From a virus: a stretch of 40,688 nucleotides of DNA. The stretch is taken from the IMG/VR virus record IMGVR_UViG_3300046328_000109, positions 1 to 40,688 of that record; one strand, 5' to 3'. The notes below the pieces were generated by a model. That model saw nothing but the letters and a program-made list of their open reading frames with translations. It ran no database searches and had not been told where the DNA came from. The translations under genes were made by a program, and so were the position numbers. This document shows positions 10,817 through 35,507 of this stretch, piece after piece; within the stretch, counting starts at the first letter, position 1; each line of letters begins with the position of its first letter.

Positions 10817-13357
10817 TTATTTAACAAAATCTTCGTAGTATTGGATTAATTGATTTTCGTTGTTAAAATATTTAACATTATCTGGTGGTGAATAATTAAC
10901 CATTTCACGTCCTTTTATTACCAATCCATCATATCCAATATTTTTCATCTCATCACTAATTGTTGTCTTTTCACTAAAGAAATGATTACTTCTAGGTACA
11001 TTATGTTTTTTGCAAAAATTGGTTACAAGTTGTTGTTGAAAAATTTCTGCCATATTTGTGTCGTTAAAAACTTTTGGTTTTTTTGGTATCGCATTTAAAA
11101 CAAAATAAACTTGACCATATTTTTTAGCCATAGCTTTATTTGATAAAGCTGCTGTATATAATCCACTACCAAACATAGCACCAGCATTGTTTTCTTCACC
11201 AACATTTCCAGAAATACCCCTCAATGTAACATTATTACGCTTCCATCTTAAATATTCGTTTCTGTTGAAACTTTTGTTTGGATTTGTAATATTATTTAAT
11301 TCTTCTGTTATTATATTAATAATATCAATATTTTGTTTTGATTTATTAATCATTCTTTCATTTATTGCTGATTGATTATTTTTATATTTATCTATTAATG
11401 ATTGTATCTCTTGTTTATGTTCTTGTGGCGTATGTGTTAACAAACTATTAATTATATCTAAATCTAATTTATCTTTTACATATGGAAATATTTGCTTAAC
11501 CATATCATACTTTTGTTCTTGTGGTGTAAAATATAATAAAATACGAACCACATCCCATTCCAATTTATCCTTCACATATGGAAATATTTGCTTAACCATA
11601 TCATACTTTTGTTCTTTTGATAATTTATATAACAAACTATTAATTATATCTGAATTCAATTTATCCTTCACATATGGAAATATTTGCTTAACCATATCAT
11701 ATTCTTGTTCTTGTGGTGTGTTATCTAACAACCTATTAATCATACTAGAATCCAATTTATCCTTCACATATGGAAATATTTGCTTAACCATATCATATTC
11801 TTGTTCTTGTGGTGTGTTATCTAACAACCTATTAATCATACTAGAATTCAATTTATCCTTCACATATGGAAATATTTGCTTAACCATATCATACTTTTGT
11901 TCTTGTGGTGTGTTATCTAACAACCTATTAATCATACTAGAATCCAATTTATCCTTCACATATGGAAATATTTGCTTAACCATATCATACTTTTGTTCTT
12001 GTGGTGTGTTATTTAACAACCTATTAATCATACTAGAATCCAATTTATCCTTCACATATGGAAATATTTGTTTAATCATATCATACTTTTGTTCTTTTGA
12101 TAATTTATATAACAAACTATTAATTATATCTGAATTCAATTTATCTTTTACATATGAAATTATTTGTTTAACCATATTGTATTTTTGTTCTATTGATGCG
12201 TTTTTAAATAATATATTAACACTCTGTGCATTCAATTTATCACCATCCAATAAACCAATCTGAAAACTATATGATACTTCTTCAACACCAAATCCAATAC
12301 CAGCAGTGCCTTTTATTAATTCACCAATTCTTTTACTTAATATATCATCATATCTTTTCTTTAATTTACCATTACTCATCACATAATCAAACATATACTT
12401 ACTTATTGGTACACCCAATCCAATATACAAATTTTTTAGATCATCGGGTAACGCATTAAACTGATTATCGGTTATATGTTTATTCATCTTAACATATACA
12501 TCTAAGTAATTACGTTTTTCTTTATAATCTAACTTTGCAAACTCTTCATCACTTATTCCACTATTATATTTATTAAATGTCTCTTTTTCCTTTGGTGATA
12601 AGGGTATTGGTTTAATTAATTCTTGTTTACCATTTAATTCGGGTGCAAATTTTAAAATATCATTCCATGACATTAGTTTATCACCATCATTTTGTGCTGA
12701 TGTAACCGTATATTGTTGTTGTGTGGTATTATTAAGTTTAGCGTTTTTATGTACTTGTACAACAAAAAAATGATATTTATCTTTAAACGATCCATTAAAT
12801 ACATTTTTGGTCATATTCCAAACACCAAATTCATTTTCGGTTGCTTTAATTCTTTTTATAAAATAGAATGCAGGTTCATTCTCTTTGAACCTATATGTTG
12901 AAAACATATTAGATGCATCAGTACGAGATATGCACCAAGAATAAGGAAATTTACCTTTATATTTAATGCAAGCACGAGGTGAATTGGCGTATTTAATATC
13001 AAGCTGATCATCTTTAAGGACAATATTCCCAGGGAATTCTAACGTTTCATCTTCTTCATCCTCTTCTTCAAATGAAGCATTTTTTATATTACGCTTACCT
13101 TTAACATAATCAACAATAGTTTCAAGCTGATGAAAATCTTTATAGTTATCTATAATTTTACGTTTATCTTTATCAATTTTAAAATCAATAATATCATCAT
13201 TAAGTTCTCTAAAATCTTTAATAGTTTTAAATGTATCAATATAGTTATCAATGATTTTAGAATCAATACCTTGTTTAAGGTATTGTGCTTTCATTGATTT
13301 AAAATCTTCGTTCAAAAAGTTTTTAATCTCACTTTCTATTATATTCTTTAAATTCAT
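10817..13357 (-). CDS. Multidomain virion-type protein with 32-aa repeats and ADP-ribosyltransferase-like C-terminus
   Basis: 846 residues. The N-terminal MNLKNIIESEIKNFLNE resembles the start of the ParB-like protein at 33057. Residues about 120-230 form a domain with ACIKYKGKFPYSWCIS and a later NDGDKLMSW, a pattern I have seen in large-phage proteins but cannot name. Residues 388-643 are eight tandem 32-residue repeats (see 11429-12196). From about 710 to the end comes LRGIS, GSGLYTAAL, a KYGQVYFVL strand, then GYDGLVIKGREMVNYSP and VKYF. This order (Arg, G-x-x-Y, Y/F-G strand, G-Y-D-G, a final Y-x-P and V-K) fits polyvalent-type ADP-ribosyltransferases. It sits among baseplate genes, 12 bases after 13370-14272, so it is probably made late and carried in or on the virion. 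Confidence 0.65.
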   Translation of the reverse strand: MNLKNIIESEIKNFLNEDFKSMKAQYLKQGIDSKIIDNYIDTFKTIKDFRELNDDIIDFKIDKDKRKIIDNYKDFHQLETIVDYVKGKRNIKNASFEEEDEEDETLEFPGNIVLKDDQLDIKYANSPRACIKYKGKFPYSWCISRTDASNMFSTYRFKENEPAFYFIKRIKATENEFGVWNMTKNVFNGSFKDKYHFFVVQVHKNAKLNNTTQQQYTVTSAQNDGDKLMSWNDILKFAPELNGKQELIKPIPLSPKEKETFNKYNSGISDEEFAKLDYKEKRNYLDVYVKMNKHITDNQFNALPDDLKNLYIGLGVPISKYMFDYVMSNGKLKKRYDDILSKRIGELIKGTAGIGFGVEEVSYSFQIGLLDGDKLNAQSVNILFKNASIEQKYNMVKQIISYVKDKLNSDIINSLLYKLSKEQKYDMIKQIFPYVKDKLDSSMINRLLNNTPQEQKYDMVKQIFPYVKDKLDSSMINRLLDNTPQEQKYDMVKQIFPYVKDKLNSSMINRLLDNTPQEQEYDMVKQIFPYVKDKLDSSMINRLLDNTPQEQEYDMVKQIFPYVKDKLNSDIINSLLYKLSKEQKYDMVKQIFPYVKDKLEWDVVRILLYFTPQEQKYDMVKQIFPYVKDKLDLDIINSLLTHTPQEHKQEIQSLIDKYKNNQSAINERMINKSKQNIDIINIITEELNNITNPNKSFNRNEYLRWKRNNVTLRGISGNVGEENNAGAMFGSGLYTAALSNKAMAKKYGQVYFVLNAIPKKPKVFNDTNMAEIFQQQLVTNFCKKHNVPRSNHFFSEKTTISDEMKNIGYDGLVIKGREMVNYSPPDNVKYFNNENQLIQYYEDFVK
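11429..12196 (-). repeat. Eight tandem 96-bp coding repeats
   Basis: Eight consecutive 96-bp units inside the 846-residue protein, each coding for 32 residues of the form (P/S)(Q/K)EQ-K-Y-D-M-V-K-Q-I-F-P-Y-V-K-D-K-L, then a variable I-N-x-L-L half. The first half is almost invariant in DNA as well as protein, so the units expanded or were homogenised recently. The second half varies (SSMINRLLDNT, SDIINSLLYKL, EWDVVRILLYFT). Two helices per unit predict an alpha-solenoid. A partial ninth unit follows below 11429. Confidence 0.9.
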
Positions 13358-19214: not shown

Positions 19215-19619
19215 TTAAGTTGTAACTGTTATTGTTATTTGATCAGTTTCTTCAAACACATCCTCGGAATATGTAAAATCAACTTGCATCCTAACCTCAT
19301 TTTCTTTGATTGGTGTTCCATTCTCATCCTCCAATGTGTAAAACAATATTTTATTTATTGTCAATTGTGGAATGTATTTTTTTATTGTGTTTTTAAAATC
19401 TTCTTGGATTGATTGAAATGTATTCTCATCCTTCTGCTCAAAAAAGAATTTCTTTAGATTAATACCATAATCTGGCATGTAATATCTCTCACCACGATCA
19501 GTTAATAACAATAAATATAAATTAGATCTCAAAGCATCCTTGGATAACTTATTGGTCTTAAATAGAAAGTTCTTCTCATTGTCATCTTGAAAAGGAAATG
19601 CAATATTTATATTCTTCAT
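19215..19619 (-). CDS. Baseplate wedge protein (T4 gp25-like)
   Basis: 134 residues, the usual size of gp25/GPW proteins. It has KDALRSNLYLLLLTDRGERY (helix, then strand with the T-x-R-G-E-R signature), MPDYGINLKKFFFE and a C-terminal EVRMQVDFTY strand. Family members join the sheath to the baseplate and start sheath assembly; the historical lysozyme label is not supported by catalytic residues here. It is the first gene of the baseplate operon, with a late motif 16 bases upstream and a terminator before that. Confidence 0.85.
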   Translation of the reverse strand: MKNINIAFPFQDDNEKNFLFKTNKLSKDALRSNLYLLLLTDRGERYYMPDYGINLKKFFFEQKDENTFQSIQEDFKNTIKKYIPQLTINKILFYTLEDENGTPIKENEVRMQVDFTYSEDVFEETDQITITVTT

Positions 19620-19703: not shown

Positions 19704-20168
19704 TTATACTATTGGTTTAACAATGAAATTTGGATTGAGGCTTACGTTATAATCTTCTAGATATGATCTATCATAATATGAATTTCTTATACGATCAAAA
19801 TTAACATTAACATTACCAATTGTTTTTTGAATCACGTGTTGAATATTTGTGCGGATTACAGTTAAGAATAATTTAACCGCTATCTGTTTTGATAATCCAA
19901 AAATTATACTTAAAGAACATATTGGTTCATCATATGTAGTAATAAATATTGAATCAAAGTAAATTGTTATCTTAAACTGAATTGTATCATTTTTCAAAAA
20001 ATAAACACTCTTTGGATCTGGACTTACTACCTTTTCAGCAATGTGTGTGCAATCATTCCATAAATCCAAAATATGTTCTCTAATATAATAATTATATGTA
20101 AATTCATCAGCCATTAGATTTGGCCCAATATGTTCAATATATATTTGATTTATGTAATTACAAAGCAT
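19704..20168 (-). CDS. 'YINxIY' paralogue family protein (154 aa)
   Basis: Starts MLCNYINQIYIEHIGPNLMA, then DEFTYNYYIREHILDLWNDC, the fullest version of the family start shared with 1-109, 21147-21692 and 35064-35507. The middle holds aromatic strands around a D-x-Y-F-D-S-type element, and the C-terminus is Asn-rich. No known catalytic pattern. It follows the nucleotidyltransferase-like gene after 5 bases and is closed by a terminator, so it ends the operon that begins near 24 kb or 23.5 kb. Function unknown. Confidence 0.65.
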   Translation of the reverse strand: MLCNYINQIYIEHIGPNLMADEFTYNYYIREHILDLWNDCTHIAEKVVSPDPKSVYFLKNDTIQFKITIYFDSIFITTYDEPICSLSIIFGLSKQIAVKLFLTVIRTNIQHVIQKTIGNVNVNFDRIRNSYYDRSYLEDYNVSLNPNFIVKPIV

Positions 20169-20173
20169 ATTAA

Positions 20174-20719
20174 TTAAAATGGTAAATCATCAATTATAGT
20201 TTCAATCTGAACCAAATCTAGTTTATGTTTTGCTGTTCTATCAGCATATGATCTTTTGGCTAGTATTGCATTATTAACATTTTGGATTCTTATTACTCTT
20301 TTTTTAAATTTAAAAATTGAATGTTGTAATTGTTCTTCGGGTACAGAAAAACAACATATTTTAATGTTTTTCCAAATCATTCCAACTCTTCTGATTTGTT
20401 CACCATTAACATCAGTTGTCGATTCCGAAAATCTATTATTTGAATGTTCGCTTGAAACAACTTCCATTATTCCAATATATGAAACGCTTTGTTCTCTGGA
20501 AACAAAAACATCAATATCATTAATTTTTCTATTTAGTAAACCAACAGCATTTAATGCGATTGAACCACCAAAGACTACATGTGGACAAACAAGTAAAATA
20601 TTGTCCATCGCTTCCAATATTTCTGGTGAAAGAATATTTGGATCATCTAAATTGTTTTTAAAATTCATTTTAATGTTATATTTATCATAATCAAATTCAT
20701 CTGTATTTATATTCATCAT
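20174..20719 (-). CDS. Nucleotidyltransferase-fold protein
   Basis: 181 residues. Residues 49-72 read VVFGGSIALNAVGLLNR followed by NDIDVFV: the G-G-S-x-A-L helix cap and the D-x-D metal pair of the polymerase-beta nucleotidyltransferase superfamily, as in small MNT-type and AbiEii-like enzymes. A basic segment near the end (AILAKRSYADRTAKHKLDL) matches the K-x-x-x-R-x-K-H-x-x-D-L motif of these proteins. Substrate unknown; it could transfer a nucleotide to a protein, RNA or small molecule. It sits between two members of the YINxIY family, overlapping the upstream one by 4 bases, so a functional link with that family is possible. Confidence 0.75.
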   Translation of the reverse strand: MMNINTDEFDYDKYNIKMNFKNNLDDPNILSPEILEAMDNILLVCPHVVFGGSIALNAVGLLNRKINDIDVFVSREQSVSYIGIMEVVSSEHSNNRFSESTTDVNGEQIRRVGMIWKNIKICCFSVPEEQLQHSIFKFKKRVIRIQNVNNAILAKRSYADRTAKHKLDLVQIETIIDDLPF

Positions 20720-21144
20720 TTAATTAATGTTGTTGATTTTAATTTACCACAATGTCTCCATCTAACGGAACTGATATTTGAGTGATAAGTAACGTAAATA
20801 ATTGGTATATATTTTAATAACGCCTTAAAATAATCAACATATTCTGACCAATTATAATAATATGTTTTTGTTAAAAAATATGTAGGTTCTACAAAATCAA
20901 ATGAAAGATATATTGTACTATCGTCAATTAGTTCAAATCCAATATCACCATCATAAAACATGTAAAACTTAGAATTGGGATAATTTTCGTAAACATTTAT
21001 AGAAATAATTCTATTGTTAATATAATGTTCAATATGTAATGTTATTAATCTATTATATTTATATTCACTATTATTTTCTAAATTATCAATAATATGGTTA
21101 ACATAAATATCAAAAATATAATCAGAAACCATCGTCATATTCAT
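20716..21144 (-). CDS. Divergent 'YINxIY' family member (142 aa)
   Basis: The N-terminal MVSDYIFDIYVNHIIDNL keeps the Y-I-x-x-I-Y-x-x-x-I spacing of the family but lacks D-E-F. The start could be the first Met (21144) or the fifth (MVSDYI). The middle has several aromatic strands (FYMFYDGDIGFEL, YLSFDFVEPTYF) and no catalytic pattern. It overlaps the nucleotidyltransferase-like gene by 4 bases (ATGA) and lies 2 bases after the family member carrying the GC-rich insertion, giving a tight pair of paralogues. Confidence 0.6.
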   Translation of the reverse strand: MNMTMVSDYIFDIYVNHIIDNLENNSEYKYNRLITLHIEHYINNRIISINVYENYPNSKFYMFYDGDIGFELIDDSTIYLSFDFVEPTYFLTKTYYYNWSEYVDYFKALLKYIPIIYVTYHSNISSVRWRHCGKLKSTTLIK

Positions 21145-21146
21145 AA

Positions 21147-21692
21147 TTAAATCTTAACGTTATTCGCCCTGCTTTGCAGGGATTCGTATTCTCGTAAAAT
21201 CGAAAGACGGCCACCCGTAAACGAGTACGAATCCCGAAAAGCGCAGTAGTAGGACGAGAAACCGACCCCACCATTCGCATTATTCAGTAATATATTTTCA
21301 TTGATATTATCAGATTGAATATTTGCTGGATTTATTTCATCTATCGTATCCAATACAATCTTCGGTATATTATCCGATGGGAATATTTGATCAAATAATT
21401 GTTTTATTTCTTTATATTGTAGTCCGTGATTTAATAATATATCATACGGCTCTTTATATATGTATATGTAGTTTAAATTATCTGATTTATGATAATAAAT
21501 TTGAAACCATATGATATTATCCTTTACATAAAACAATCTATCTAGATCCGATTTATTTTTTCCAATATGTGTACAATTGTTCCATAAATCCAAATATAGA
21601 TTTTTAATTAGTTCTGAATATAATAATTCATCACCTAATAGTGCTGGATTAATATACTCTTTGTATATGTTGGTTATGTATTTGCTTAACAT
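21147..21692 (-). CDS. 'YINxIY' family member with in-frame GC-rich insertion
   Basis: 181 residues. The start MLSKYITNIYKEYINPALLG, then DELLY and LYLDLWNNCTHIGK, matches the paralogue at 19704-20168. The last 44 residues are unlike the rest: 37 of them come from a 111-bp GC-rich segment (21162-21278). Removing it would rejoin the sequence as ...LLN-AN-NVKI-stop with the frame intact, so the ancestral protein was probably about 144 residues, near the size of its relatives. Whether the longer protein still works is unknown. It has a 6-base gap from the nucleotidase fusion upstream. Confidence 0.7.
   Translation of the reverse strand: MLSKYITNIYKEYINPALLGDELLYSELIKNLYLDLWNNCTHIGKNKSDLDRLFYVKDNIIWFQIYYHKSDNLNYIYIYKEPYDILLNHGLQYKEIKQLFDQIFPSDNIPKIVLDTIDEINPANIQSDNINENILLNNANGGVGFSSYYCAFRDSYSFTGGRLSILREYESLQSRANNVKI
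21162..21278 (-). mobile_element. 111-bp GC-rich palindromic element inserted in frame
   Basis: The core has 55 G/C in 105 bases against clearly AT-rich surroundings. It is bounded by direct repeats ATTCGC (21162-21167 and 21273-21278), both in the same codon phase. Inside are a long stem GGGATTCGTA (21179-21188)/TACGAATCCC (21226-21235), extended by CTCGT (21191-21195)/ACGAG (21221-21225), an inner hairpin ACGG/CCGT (21207-21218), and an overlapping hairpin CCCTGC-TTT-GCAGGG (21167-21181). The unit is exactly 37 codons. It codes for no transposase, so it would need to be mobilised in trans. By analogy it resembles palindromic elements such as the Rickettsia RPEs that insert into genes without breaking them. 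Confidence 0.6.
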
Positions 21693-21698
21693 ACTATA

Positions 21699-22511
21699 TT
21701 AATTAAACAATTCTGATAATGATTTAATTCTTTTATAACCCACATTATATCTTTGATTATGTGGTGCATCAAACAAATAACAGCAGATACCTGCATTATT
21801 TAATTCAACAAAGTTTTCAAATCTATCATCAACAAAAATGTCAATCCCAGATTGTTTTGCTATATCAACCTTGCTTTGTTCGAATCCAACACAATATACT
21901 GGCATGGTTGGAAATCCATTTTTATCGAGCCATTCTTCAGTCCACTCTTTTGGAATTGATCTTGATGTGATGTAGCAGTGCGGTTCAAAATGAATTTCGT
22001 TTGGATTTGTTTTAACTGGTATAGATAACCAAAATTCCTTATCATCTTTTAATGAATCAAATTTGGATTTTATATCTCTATCAAAATTCCATGTTTCTGG
22101 AACTTCTTGTTTATGATGCTTTGACCAATGACCAACCCAATCCGCTAGGACTTCATCAATATCAAGTCCAATCTTGGGCATTTTTAAATACTTATGATGT
22201 CTATTATCACCTTGTGGATATATCTTGCTGTATTCAACCAAAAATGCTGCATTACACATAACGTGTGCCATGTGATGTGAAAAAGTCTCAGGATCAAAAT
22301 CCTCCCCATTTTCAAATGCTGCTATATGTCTTTTTAATGAAGCAAGTACCTTACTCCAATCCATACCCCTTTTCCAATTGTTAGGTGCATACTTATTTGC
22401 ACCATAAGTCAAAACCTTAACAAATTCTTTTTCAGCAAAATTGGGAATTAAATCATATCTTAATTTACCTTCGTTATAACGAAGTCCACCACCATCTATC
22501 TTATTGCTCAT
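21699..22511 (-). CDS. dATP/dGTP diphosphohydrolase-like domain fused to 5'-nucleotidase-like HAD domain
   Basis: 270 residues in two domains. Residues 1-110 match the phage dATP/dGTP pyrophosphohydrolase N-terminal family: GGLRYNEGKLRYDLIP, LTYGANKYAPNNWKRGM, LKRHIAAFENGEDFDPE and HHMAHVMCNAAFL, with the E/H metal ligands of an all-alpha MazG-type fold. Residues 112-270 form a HAD domain of 5'-nucleotidase type: GLDIDEVLADW (nucleophile Asp-x-Asp), YITSR, and GIDIFVDDRFENF. Together these could turn a dNTP first into dNMP and then into nucleoside, or shape nucleotide pools for phage DNA synthesis. The fusion is a single unbroken frame. It is transcribed with small unknown genes upstream. Confidence 0.8.
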   Translation of the reverse strand: MSNKIDGGGLRYNEGKLRYDLIPNFAEKEFVKVLTYGANKYAPNNWKRGMDWSKVLASLKRHIAAFENGEDFDPETFSHHMAHVMCNAAFLVEYSKIYPQGDNRHHKYLKMPKIGLDIDEVLADWVGHWSKHHKQEVPETWNFDRDIKSKFDSLKDDKEFWLSIPVKTNPNEIHFEPHCYITSRSIPKEWTEEWLDKNGFPTMPVYCVGFEQSKVDIAKQSGIDIFVDDRFENFVELNNAGICCYLFDAPHNQRYNVGYKRIKSLSELFN

Positions 22512-22528
22512 TATTTTTATAATATTAA

Positions 22529-22744
22529 TTAAACAAATCTATATCCAACATAATCACACTGATTGCAATGTATATTTTTTTTTGCTGGAATTGATGTTAA
22601 AGTCATCATTGGATTTGAATCCAATAACTCACTTTTGCATTGTGGGCATTCAACACCATTAGGTTGTGGTGCATTTGAAAATTGATTGCTGAATTGAAAT
22701 GCTTGAGCATTATTTTCTTCTAGCGTTTTTAGTTTCTTTGACAT
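22529..22744 (-). CDS. Small zinc-ribbon protein (71 aa)
   Basis: Two Cys pairs, ECPQCKSEL (about residue 33) and IHCNQCDYVGY (about 59), form a typical four-Cys zinc ribbon. The N-terminal thirty residues are polar and Gln/Asn-rich, probably disordered. Such small ribbons in phages often bind nucleic acid or RNA polymerase, but no partner can be named here. It lies 17 bases before the diphosphohydrolase fusion gene and 11 bases after the next gene. Confidence 0.7.
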   Translation of the reverse strand: MSKKLKTLEENNAQAFQFSNQFSNAPQPNGVECPQCKSELLDSNPMMTLTSIPAKKNIHCNQCDYVGYRFV

Positions 22745-22755
22745 AATTATTATTA

Positions 22756-23208
22756 TTAAAATGGGATATCATTATCCGTTTTTTCGTTTTCAATATAAAG
22801 AATATCACTTAACAATTCTTGTAGAACATCAACAATTTTTCCATTTAATGTATAATAATCCATTCCTTGTTTGGTTACATTTAATAGTTTATTATATTCT
22901 AATATTCTTTCCTCAATCAATAAAACATATTCGCTTTTGGATTTGTCTTTAATCCCAGAAGCATATTGACCATTATTTTCTTTCCATACCTCAAATGTAC
23001 ATTCAGTTAATTTATTACCACCCAAATGTTTCATATCACGACCATACATATTTACTGAATATAGTTCATTATTAATCCATTTAGCTTTTATTCCCCAACA
23101 ACCACCATCTCGATAATATTCAAATAAATTATCGGTCAACACCAATCTAAATGCAGTATTTCCCATCATCACATAATTTGGTAATCTTTTAATATTTTTT
23201 TTGGTCAT
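22756..23208 (-). CDS. Hypothetical protein (150 aa)
   Basis: A soluble protein with an aromatic beta-rich first half (NYVMMGNTAFRLVLTDNLFE, CWGIKAKWINNELYSVNMYG) and a helical second half ending in an acidic NDIPF. The C-terminal D-N-D-I-P-F resembles acidic tails of phage single-strand-binding or replication proteins, but the body does not look like an OB fold I can recognise. Co-transcribed with the zinc-ribbon gene. Function unknown. Confidence 0.6.
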   Translation of the reverse strand: MTKKNIKRLPNYVMMGNTAFRLVLTDNLFEYYRDGGCWGIKAKWINNELYSVNMYGRDMKHLGGNKLTECTFEVWKENNGQYASGIKDKSKSEYVLLIEERILEYNKLLNVTKQGMDYYTLNGKIVDVLQELLSDILYIENEKTDNDIPF

Positions 23209-23220
23209 TGTAACATTGAA

Positions 23221-23472
23221 TTATAAGTTGTTATATCGCCACTCGGCCTCGTCAAAATTATATTTTCTATAGTCAGCCAAATATGTTTCTAGAACACACA
23301 AGGGACAACTATGGATTTGGTTTGTACAGTCTCCTGAATGATATTCTGTTTCCAATAACATTGGATAATAAGATATAAAACTTTTTGCCCAATCCAAAGA
23401 AGATTGATCAATGTTATCAAAGTCGTCAGATTCGTGAGCTGCAATAAATTCAACAAATGTGTATTTTTTCAT
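23221..23472 (-). CDS. Small Cys-containing phage protein (83 aa)
   Basis: Acidic helical N-terminus, then HSGDCTNQIHSCPLCVLETY, with three Cys and two His in a compact cluster that could bind zinc, and an aromatic C-terminus. This H-S-G-D-C-T-x-x-x-x-x-C-P-L-C-x-L-E pattern is seen in small proteins of T4-like phages of unknown role. It is the first gene after the terminator at 23528-23564 and so probably opens the operon reaching down to 19704. Confidence 0.65.
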   Translation of the reverse strand: MKKYTFVEFIAAHESDDFDNIDQSSLDWAKSFISYYPMLLETEYHSGDCTNQIHSCPLCVLETYLADYRKYNFDEAEWRYNNL

Positions 23473-23592: not shown

Positions 23593-24030
23593 TTATTGGG
23601 TAATATGGTTCATTTCTAATTCTTTTTCATCATTTTGTTGTGTGGCTATTTTAATACTATCTTGTAATCTAATCACTTCATCATAACCATATTTTTCAAT
23701 AATACCTCTAAAGGTTGTGAAATCTGGTTGTGTGATTTTAACTACACCACGCTCATCATTATATGAGATTCCACATAGTGCTTCATCAAATACTTGTTCT
23801 TTTTGTTTTTCATCAAGAACATCAAATAGTTCTTCATTTAAAATAATTACAACATCAAATCCTCCAAGATATTTATGTAGATCATTTTCTTTTACTACTT
23901 TATAAATTTCCTTTTGTGAGTTATCAACCAATACCGTTACCTTAATAAAATTATCAAGATTTGTTTTATCATAGATGTGATTGAATGATTTTAATGTTTC
24001 CTTTTCGGGTGATTCATACTGCTTTGCCAT
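23593..24030 (-). CDS. Putative phage metallopeptidase-like protein, apparently without HExxH
   Basis: 145 residues from ATG 24030 (MAKQYESPEKE); an in-frame ATG at 24072 would add 14 less conserved residues. The centre FDVVIILNEELFDVLDEKQK then VFDEALCGISYN has the layout of small phage proteins related to metallopeptidases, in which the second segment is normally H-E-L-x-H. Here it reads D-E-A-L-x-G, so zinc binding and proteolysis look lost. A later ITQPDFTTFRGIIEKYG is also conserved in this type. It has its own terminator 28 bases after the stop. Role unknown. Confidence 0.5.
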   Translation of the reverse strand: MAKQYESPEKETLKSFNHIYDKTNLDNFIKVTVLVDNSQKEIYKVVKENDLHKYLGGFDVVIILNEELFDVLDEKQKEQVFDEALCGISYNDERGVVKITQPDFTTFRGIIEKYGYDEVIRLQDSIKIATQQNDEKELEMNHITQ

Positions 24031-24094
24031 AATTGTTATATTTTGTTTTAAATTAAAAACAATATTAACCAATCAAATCCAATAATGCAAATTT

Positions 24095-35063: not shown

Positions 35064-35507
35064 TTAAAGTGAATTGTTTGCTAATTTTGATTTAATAAAT
35101 TCCCATGATCTATCCATTTCAATATAATCAATCCTATTAACAACTAGCATATCAAATTCTTGGAATTCCATTCTCCGAATAATTTTTTCCAAAACTCTAT
35201 ATATAACAGAATTGGATTTATTATTATCTAATAAAAAGCCTAATGGACTGTCTGGTGAATTAAATAATATAATATCATTGCCCCAAACTGATCTAAAATT
35301 GAAATTAATTTTATGTTCATATTCAAAAACAACATCTTTATCGTTTACGTAAAATATTGAACTCGGATATTCTGGAACTACAACAACTTTAAGTGAGTTT
35401 AATAAATCATCCATATCCGATTTTATTTTTTCTGAATATGAAAATTCATCATCAATTAATGATTGGTGAATTATATCATATATTTGATTTATATAACCAC
35501 AAAGCAT
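35064..35507 (-). CDS. 'YINxIY' paralogue family protein (147 aa)
   Basis: Starts MLCGYINQIYDIIHQSLIDD then EFSYSEKIKSDMDDL, the family start shared with 1-109, 19704-20168 and 21147-21692. The middle has a V-x-D-K-D-V-V-F strand and the C-terminus a W-E-F-I-K-S helix. It begins inside the polymerase stop (TAATG overlap), so the two are translationally coupled. That places at least one member of this unknown family in the replication operon. Confidence 0.65.
   Translation of the reverse strand: MLCGYINQIYDIIHQSLIDDEFSYSEKIKSDMDDLLNSLKVVVVPEYPSSIFYVNDKDVVFEYEHKINFNFRSVWGNDIILFNSPDSPLGFLLDNNKSNSVIYRVLEKIIRRMEFQEFDMLVVNRIDYIEMDRSWEFIKSKLANNSL

Follow-up and report, generated by a model that had tools for sequence, protein, structure and literature searches.

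Rickettsia palindromic elements (RPEs) are palindromic units of about 100-150 bp that sit in frame inside open reading frames (PMC10969869). REPs tagged with GTAG or CGTC are shorter, at 20-40 bp, and occur at high copy number, the GTAG ones being linked to RAYT transposases (PMC3733652). The small variable segments of bacterial genomes, defined by strain comparison, are short stretches scored by presence or absence, some of them in frame (PMC2884548). Here we describe a segment at the 3' end of a phage gene, called the insert below, that recalls each of these systems and also the MITEs. It lies in a 40.7-kb virus record of 27% GC whose baseplate genes are T4-like and which also codes for a family B DNA polymerase; the whole of this record was analysed and is referred to as the window.

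The sequence-only reading had likened the insert to protein-coding palindromic elements, and the likeness to RPEs stands for the size range, the internal palindrome and the in-frame position without a stop codon. It does not extend to copy number, as RPEs are multi-copy in unrelated genes whereas the insert is single, belongs to a phage and sits where its gene is about to end, and copies in unrelated genes were not found. Compared with MITEs, the insert is likewise small, without a transposase of its own and flanked by a possible target duplication (a 6-bp repeat, chance about 0.03-0.06), but it lacks terminal inverted repeats, and neither a second copy nor a related transposase was recognised. 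REPs or their dimers and the insert are all hairpins near gene 3' ends; however, REPs are high copy and the insert is single-copy in the searched window and related records. The small variable segments are similarly short and some are in frame, but they are recognised by comparing strains, and no strain-level relative was available here.

The insert-carrying open reading frame (21147-21692, minus strand, 181 aa) belongs to a multi-copy family. Its GC-rich core occupies 21168-21272 on the same strand, 105 bp with a GC content of 0.524 against a mean of 0.273 (sd 0.052) for 105-bp stretches of the window, and the GC maximum among these stretches starts at 21165. Copies of the direct repeat ATTCGC (GCGAAT in gene sense) stand at 21162-21167 and 21273-21278, placed exactly at both composition borders, with only 7 ATTCGC sites in the sequence. 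Their spacing is 111 bp or 37 codons, both copies reading as GCG AAT in one codon phase on the minus strand, and the core plus one repeat copy makes exactly 37 in-frame codons. The repeats with their shared phase, the 37-codon length and the GC content of the core had been claimed from the letters beforehand, and the measurements bear them out. A 6-bp direct repeat would be expected at the two borders by chance with a probability of about 0.03-0.06, and ATTCG recurs within the insert's own stem arms. Codon use is foreign too: the log-odds against phage usage is -0.92, compared with 0.56 ± 0.17 and a minimum of -0.03 among 680 coding stretches, which places the insert about 8 sd under them. None of the three sense frames contains a stop (matched by 0.6% of dinucleotide shuffles), which would make the insert tolerable within a gene. 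It ends four codons ahead of the stop of the 181-aa frame, at the 3' end as first proposed, and since just these four codons remain the in-frame placement tells little.

An assembly chimera, or another artefact of metagenome contigs, is highly improbable here. The region comes from a single contig and has no independent copy, but a chimera would not be expected to give both the kept frame and the boundary repeats, and no match to other sequence compared was seen. Translational bypass of the T4 gene 60 type was considered and set aside; the GCG AAT codons match, but the frame is open throughout and no skip is needed.

The fold that had been predicted, a 15-bp interrupted stem with inner and overlapping hairpins, was recovered in full. 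On the plus strand the 5' arm of the main stem (21179-21195, GGGATTCGTA-TT-CTCGT) pairs with the 3' arm (21221-21235, ACGAG-TACGAATCCC) as 10 bp (21179-21188/21226-21235) and 5 bp (21191-21195/21221-21225) separated by a 2-nt bulge at 21189-21190. An inner hairpin lies at 21207-21218 (ACGG-CCAC-CCGT), and an overlapping, competing hairpin at 21167-21181 (CCCTGC-TTT-GCAGGG) has its GGG in common with the main stem and gives only a weak terminator-like match. Terminal inverted repeats are absent from the ends of 21168-21272. RNA folding, a check suggested with the original claim and carried out here computationally, gave -37.7 kcal/mol on the plus strand (z -4.4 against shuffled sequence) and -42.5 kcal/mol on the gene-sense strand (z -3.0). 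The insert region is the strongest-folding of the window's 117-nt stretches, and its ungapped inverted-repeat score was reached by 2 of 300 shuffles. The better z on the antisense strand hints, but only hints, at an insert that was once an RNA or entered regardless of the gene.

Such a fold could belong to a functional structured RNA of the phage, placed between two co-directional paralogues and controlling, for example, translation of the downstream gene. Its strength, the few codons left before the stop and the fact that the following paralogue has its aligned start about 35 nt further on fit this idea, but the other paralogues and the relatives have no counterpart, there is no real terminator and promoter-like matches are at chance level, and we consider it quite improbable. 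A known structured RNA was rejected, with no Rfam or tRNA match and one sub-threshold chance match outside the insert (E 6.6). The position at a gene's 3' end, a terminal hairpin and the frequent use of NNY codons, encoding Y, F, S and D, also recall the variable repeat of a diversity-generating retroelement. This is scarcely credible, since an A-tolerant scan of the window found no template repeat, neither the window nor 14 related records has a reverse transcriptase, and the stem pairs the would-be variable codons with neighbour codons.

The gene family offers several insert-free comparisons. Four copies besides the 181-aa frame occur in the window, all on the minus strand: at 19704-20168 (154 aa), at 20716-21144 (142 aa, aligned start 21132), which lies directly downstream of the insert gene, at 35064-35507 (147 aa), and an incomplete fifth member cut by the window edge at 2-109. 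The first three lack the insert. Family members share a conserved N-terminus (MLCxYINxIYxxHI...DE) and have variable C-termini. The 181-aa protein matched nothing in PHROG or Pfam, the family gave no PHROG match and, for the window members tested, no credible Pfam match, and an AlphaFold2 model of the 181-aa frame was unusable (pLDDT 35). A search of 14 related viral records did not detect the family, and a profile-guided scan found it in another phage fragment, IMGVR_UViG_3300046328_000176 (G025), with four copies by profile and a probable fifth by alignment at 11604-12035. These five are 133, 143, 143, 165 and 224 aa long, and none has a GC-rich stretch, the top 105-bp GC in that fragment being 0.44 and outside the family genes. 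Family genes are often back to back, both in the window and in G025 (L234 4412-5244, 10080-12035). Removing the insert was said to restore a protein near the length of its relatives; the resulting 144 aa does agree with the 142-154 aa of the window paralogues, but the argument is weak because family C-termini vary and lengths in the wider family run from 133 to 224 aa.

The insert gene lies in an accessory gene island (19704-23472, minus strand). Two relatives were compared whole, G001 (349 kb) and G005 (325 kb), with 54-56% identity to the window in a baseplate protein. Gene order around the insert site is kept in both, the island is missing at the syntenic place, and the counterparts of 23593-24072 and 19215-19619 adjoin each other. 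An orthologous empty site is therefore unreadable, as these two genomes are without the whole 19.7-23.5-kb island, insert gene included. A Bacteroidota host is plausible, judging from distant relatives only. Several side observations were made in the same material. Both relatives are jumbo phages with large tRNA arrays (L205, L206, L212, L213), and no tRNA gene was found in the window. Their sizes suggest that the window, too, derives from a jumbo phage. The portal-like genes of G025 (L234 6231-9326) and G005 (L214 12073-16482, stop to stop) have an apparent intein-like insertion, seen by eye from the translation. The window also has an 846-aa frame at 10817-13357 containing a unit of about 35 residues (QKYDMVKQIFPYVKDKLDSSMINRLLDNTPQE) that recurs almost unchanged.

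A miniature element family had been suggested, but further copies were found in none of the collections searched. There is no second copy within the window, in the 14 related phage records or in G025, and a covariance-model scan of the whole of G001 and G005 found none. The phage and plasmid collections INPHARED and PLSDB gave none at blastn sensitivity and none by peptide, IMG/VR none by an 18-mer, a stem-pair seed, a 15-mer arm seed and six peptide seeds, and GTDB none by six peptide seeds or a palindrome seed, so that in these peptide searches the 37-residue insert, which might have turned up elsewhere in proteins, did not. BLAST against about 850 whole genomes likewise returned no copy; 388 of them shared the phylum of a Verrucomicrobia MAG, 395 that of a Desulfobacterales MAG and 68 that of a Hydrogenedentota MAG.

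Candidate matches were set aside for various reasons. The short BLAST matches (best E 7e-5, one genome, 38 bp) were near chance level for the number of genomes searched and lie in unrelated frames and genes; a resemblance to a conserved coding motif did not hold up, as their reading frames disagree. A hairpin, CCCTGCAAAGCAGGG, common to three viral contigs stands in unrelated context. In IMG/VR the six matches to the stem-pair seed were all chance, and none of the 61 to the 15-mer arm seed had the second arm; 42 matches to the palindrome seed in GTDB included some dispersed Desulfobacterales palindromes, which showed no convincing likeness beyond the seed. The seed scans were exact-match, from which we infer that copies diverged by more than about 10-15% would be lost. 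GTDB was reached by exact seeds only, with Bacteroidota genomes outside the BLAST-sensitivity search. Close copies can therefore be taken as absent from the collections used, whereas diverged ones may exist in the host lineage.

The dispersed palindromes met in these scans form sets of their own. In two Desulfobacterales MAGs, nine matches (L124, L127, L129, L131, L134, L135, L138, L147, L155), often near contig ends, have (TACTCG/TGCTCG)n arms around a conserved loop, CGGCTTTTATTTTTCGAG, followed by a GTCCCGC-TTAT-GCGGGAC hairpin. A Hydrogenedentota MAG (G015; L123, L245-L274) has another dispersed family of similar TACTCG palindromes, with about 50 matches in one genome, and a Planctomycetota locus (L139) and a Verrucomicrobia one (L144) contain others. 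The TACTCG/TAATCG palindromes of the Desulfobacterales, Hydrogenedentota and Planctomycetota MAGs resemble the insert in being palindromic with GATTCGTACTCG in an arm and, in Desulfobacterales, in the second hairpin. However, their arms are hexamer tandems and the likeness is mostly imposed by the search pattern; no convincing sequence similarity to the insert extends past the search seed. The covariance model did match L139 with a rough E of 0.003, but that seed had also served to select this locus.

The reading we favour, at somewhat short of an even chance, is that palindromic DNA of foreign origin was inserted once, in the recent past, and that the accessory gene could bear it at its 3' end. 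The foreign make-up of the sequence, its sharp borders with their repeats, the palindrome and the paralogues without an insert suit this reading best. A GC-rich palindromic stretch of about 105 bp, foreign to the phage, would have entered the last codons of the gene once and fairly recently, a staggered cut would have duplicated the target to give the 6-bp flanking repeats, and the insert may have persisted, presumably as a neutral change, because the frame was kept and the tail is just 37 residues, four codons from the stop. The absence of the insert gene's island from syntenic relatives was counted in favour of insertion. Counted against it were the lack of a second copy, of an orthologous empty site and of terminal inverted repeats, the shortness of the flanking repeat (chance 3-6%), the presence of ATTCG in the stem arms and the variable length of family C-termini.

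Where such DNA came from can be read in two ways. The insert may belong to an unsampled miniature palindromic element family, either a protein-coding palindromic insert or MITE-like, residing mainly in an uncultured host and mobilised by a transposase in trans. Such a family would be consistent with the length of the insert, its palindrome, its place in frame and the repeats at its borders, and its probable Bacteroidota hosts lie beyond the BLAST-sensitivity scan, with GTDB covered by exact seeds only. We nevertheless think it unlikely, given no copy in the collections searched, no terminal inverted repeats and no transposase recognised among the window's frames (by eye, some also being scanned against families). 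The alternative, doubtful as well, is a captured foreign piece, such as a structured RNA gene, a terminator region or a phage or host fragment, which arrived by illegitimate recombination and was never self-mobile. The GC-rich islands of G001 and G005 are mostly tRNA genes or Gly/Pro/Ala-rich coding stretches, and the better fold z on the antisense strand is as expected of an RNA gene inserted backwards, but there is no Rfam or tRNA match and BLAST gave no source. Between a miniature element and a captured fragment as the source of the insert the data cannot decide.

With neither a second copy nor an orthologous empty site in the data, a miniature-element family is not demonstrated. We regard it as improbable that this is the first copy of an undescribed family of protein-coding palindromic elements whose members pass back and forth between jumbo phages and their uncultured host, probably one of the Bacteroidota, inserting in frame with 6-bp target duplications. 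As a singleton, the insert shows one foreign insertion only and is a curiosity. The discovery of a family would reveal that small palindromic DNA can be added in frame to phage proteins, outside Rickettsia and its kin, and the mechanism of insertion would become testable in phages.
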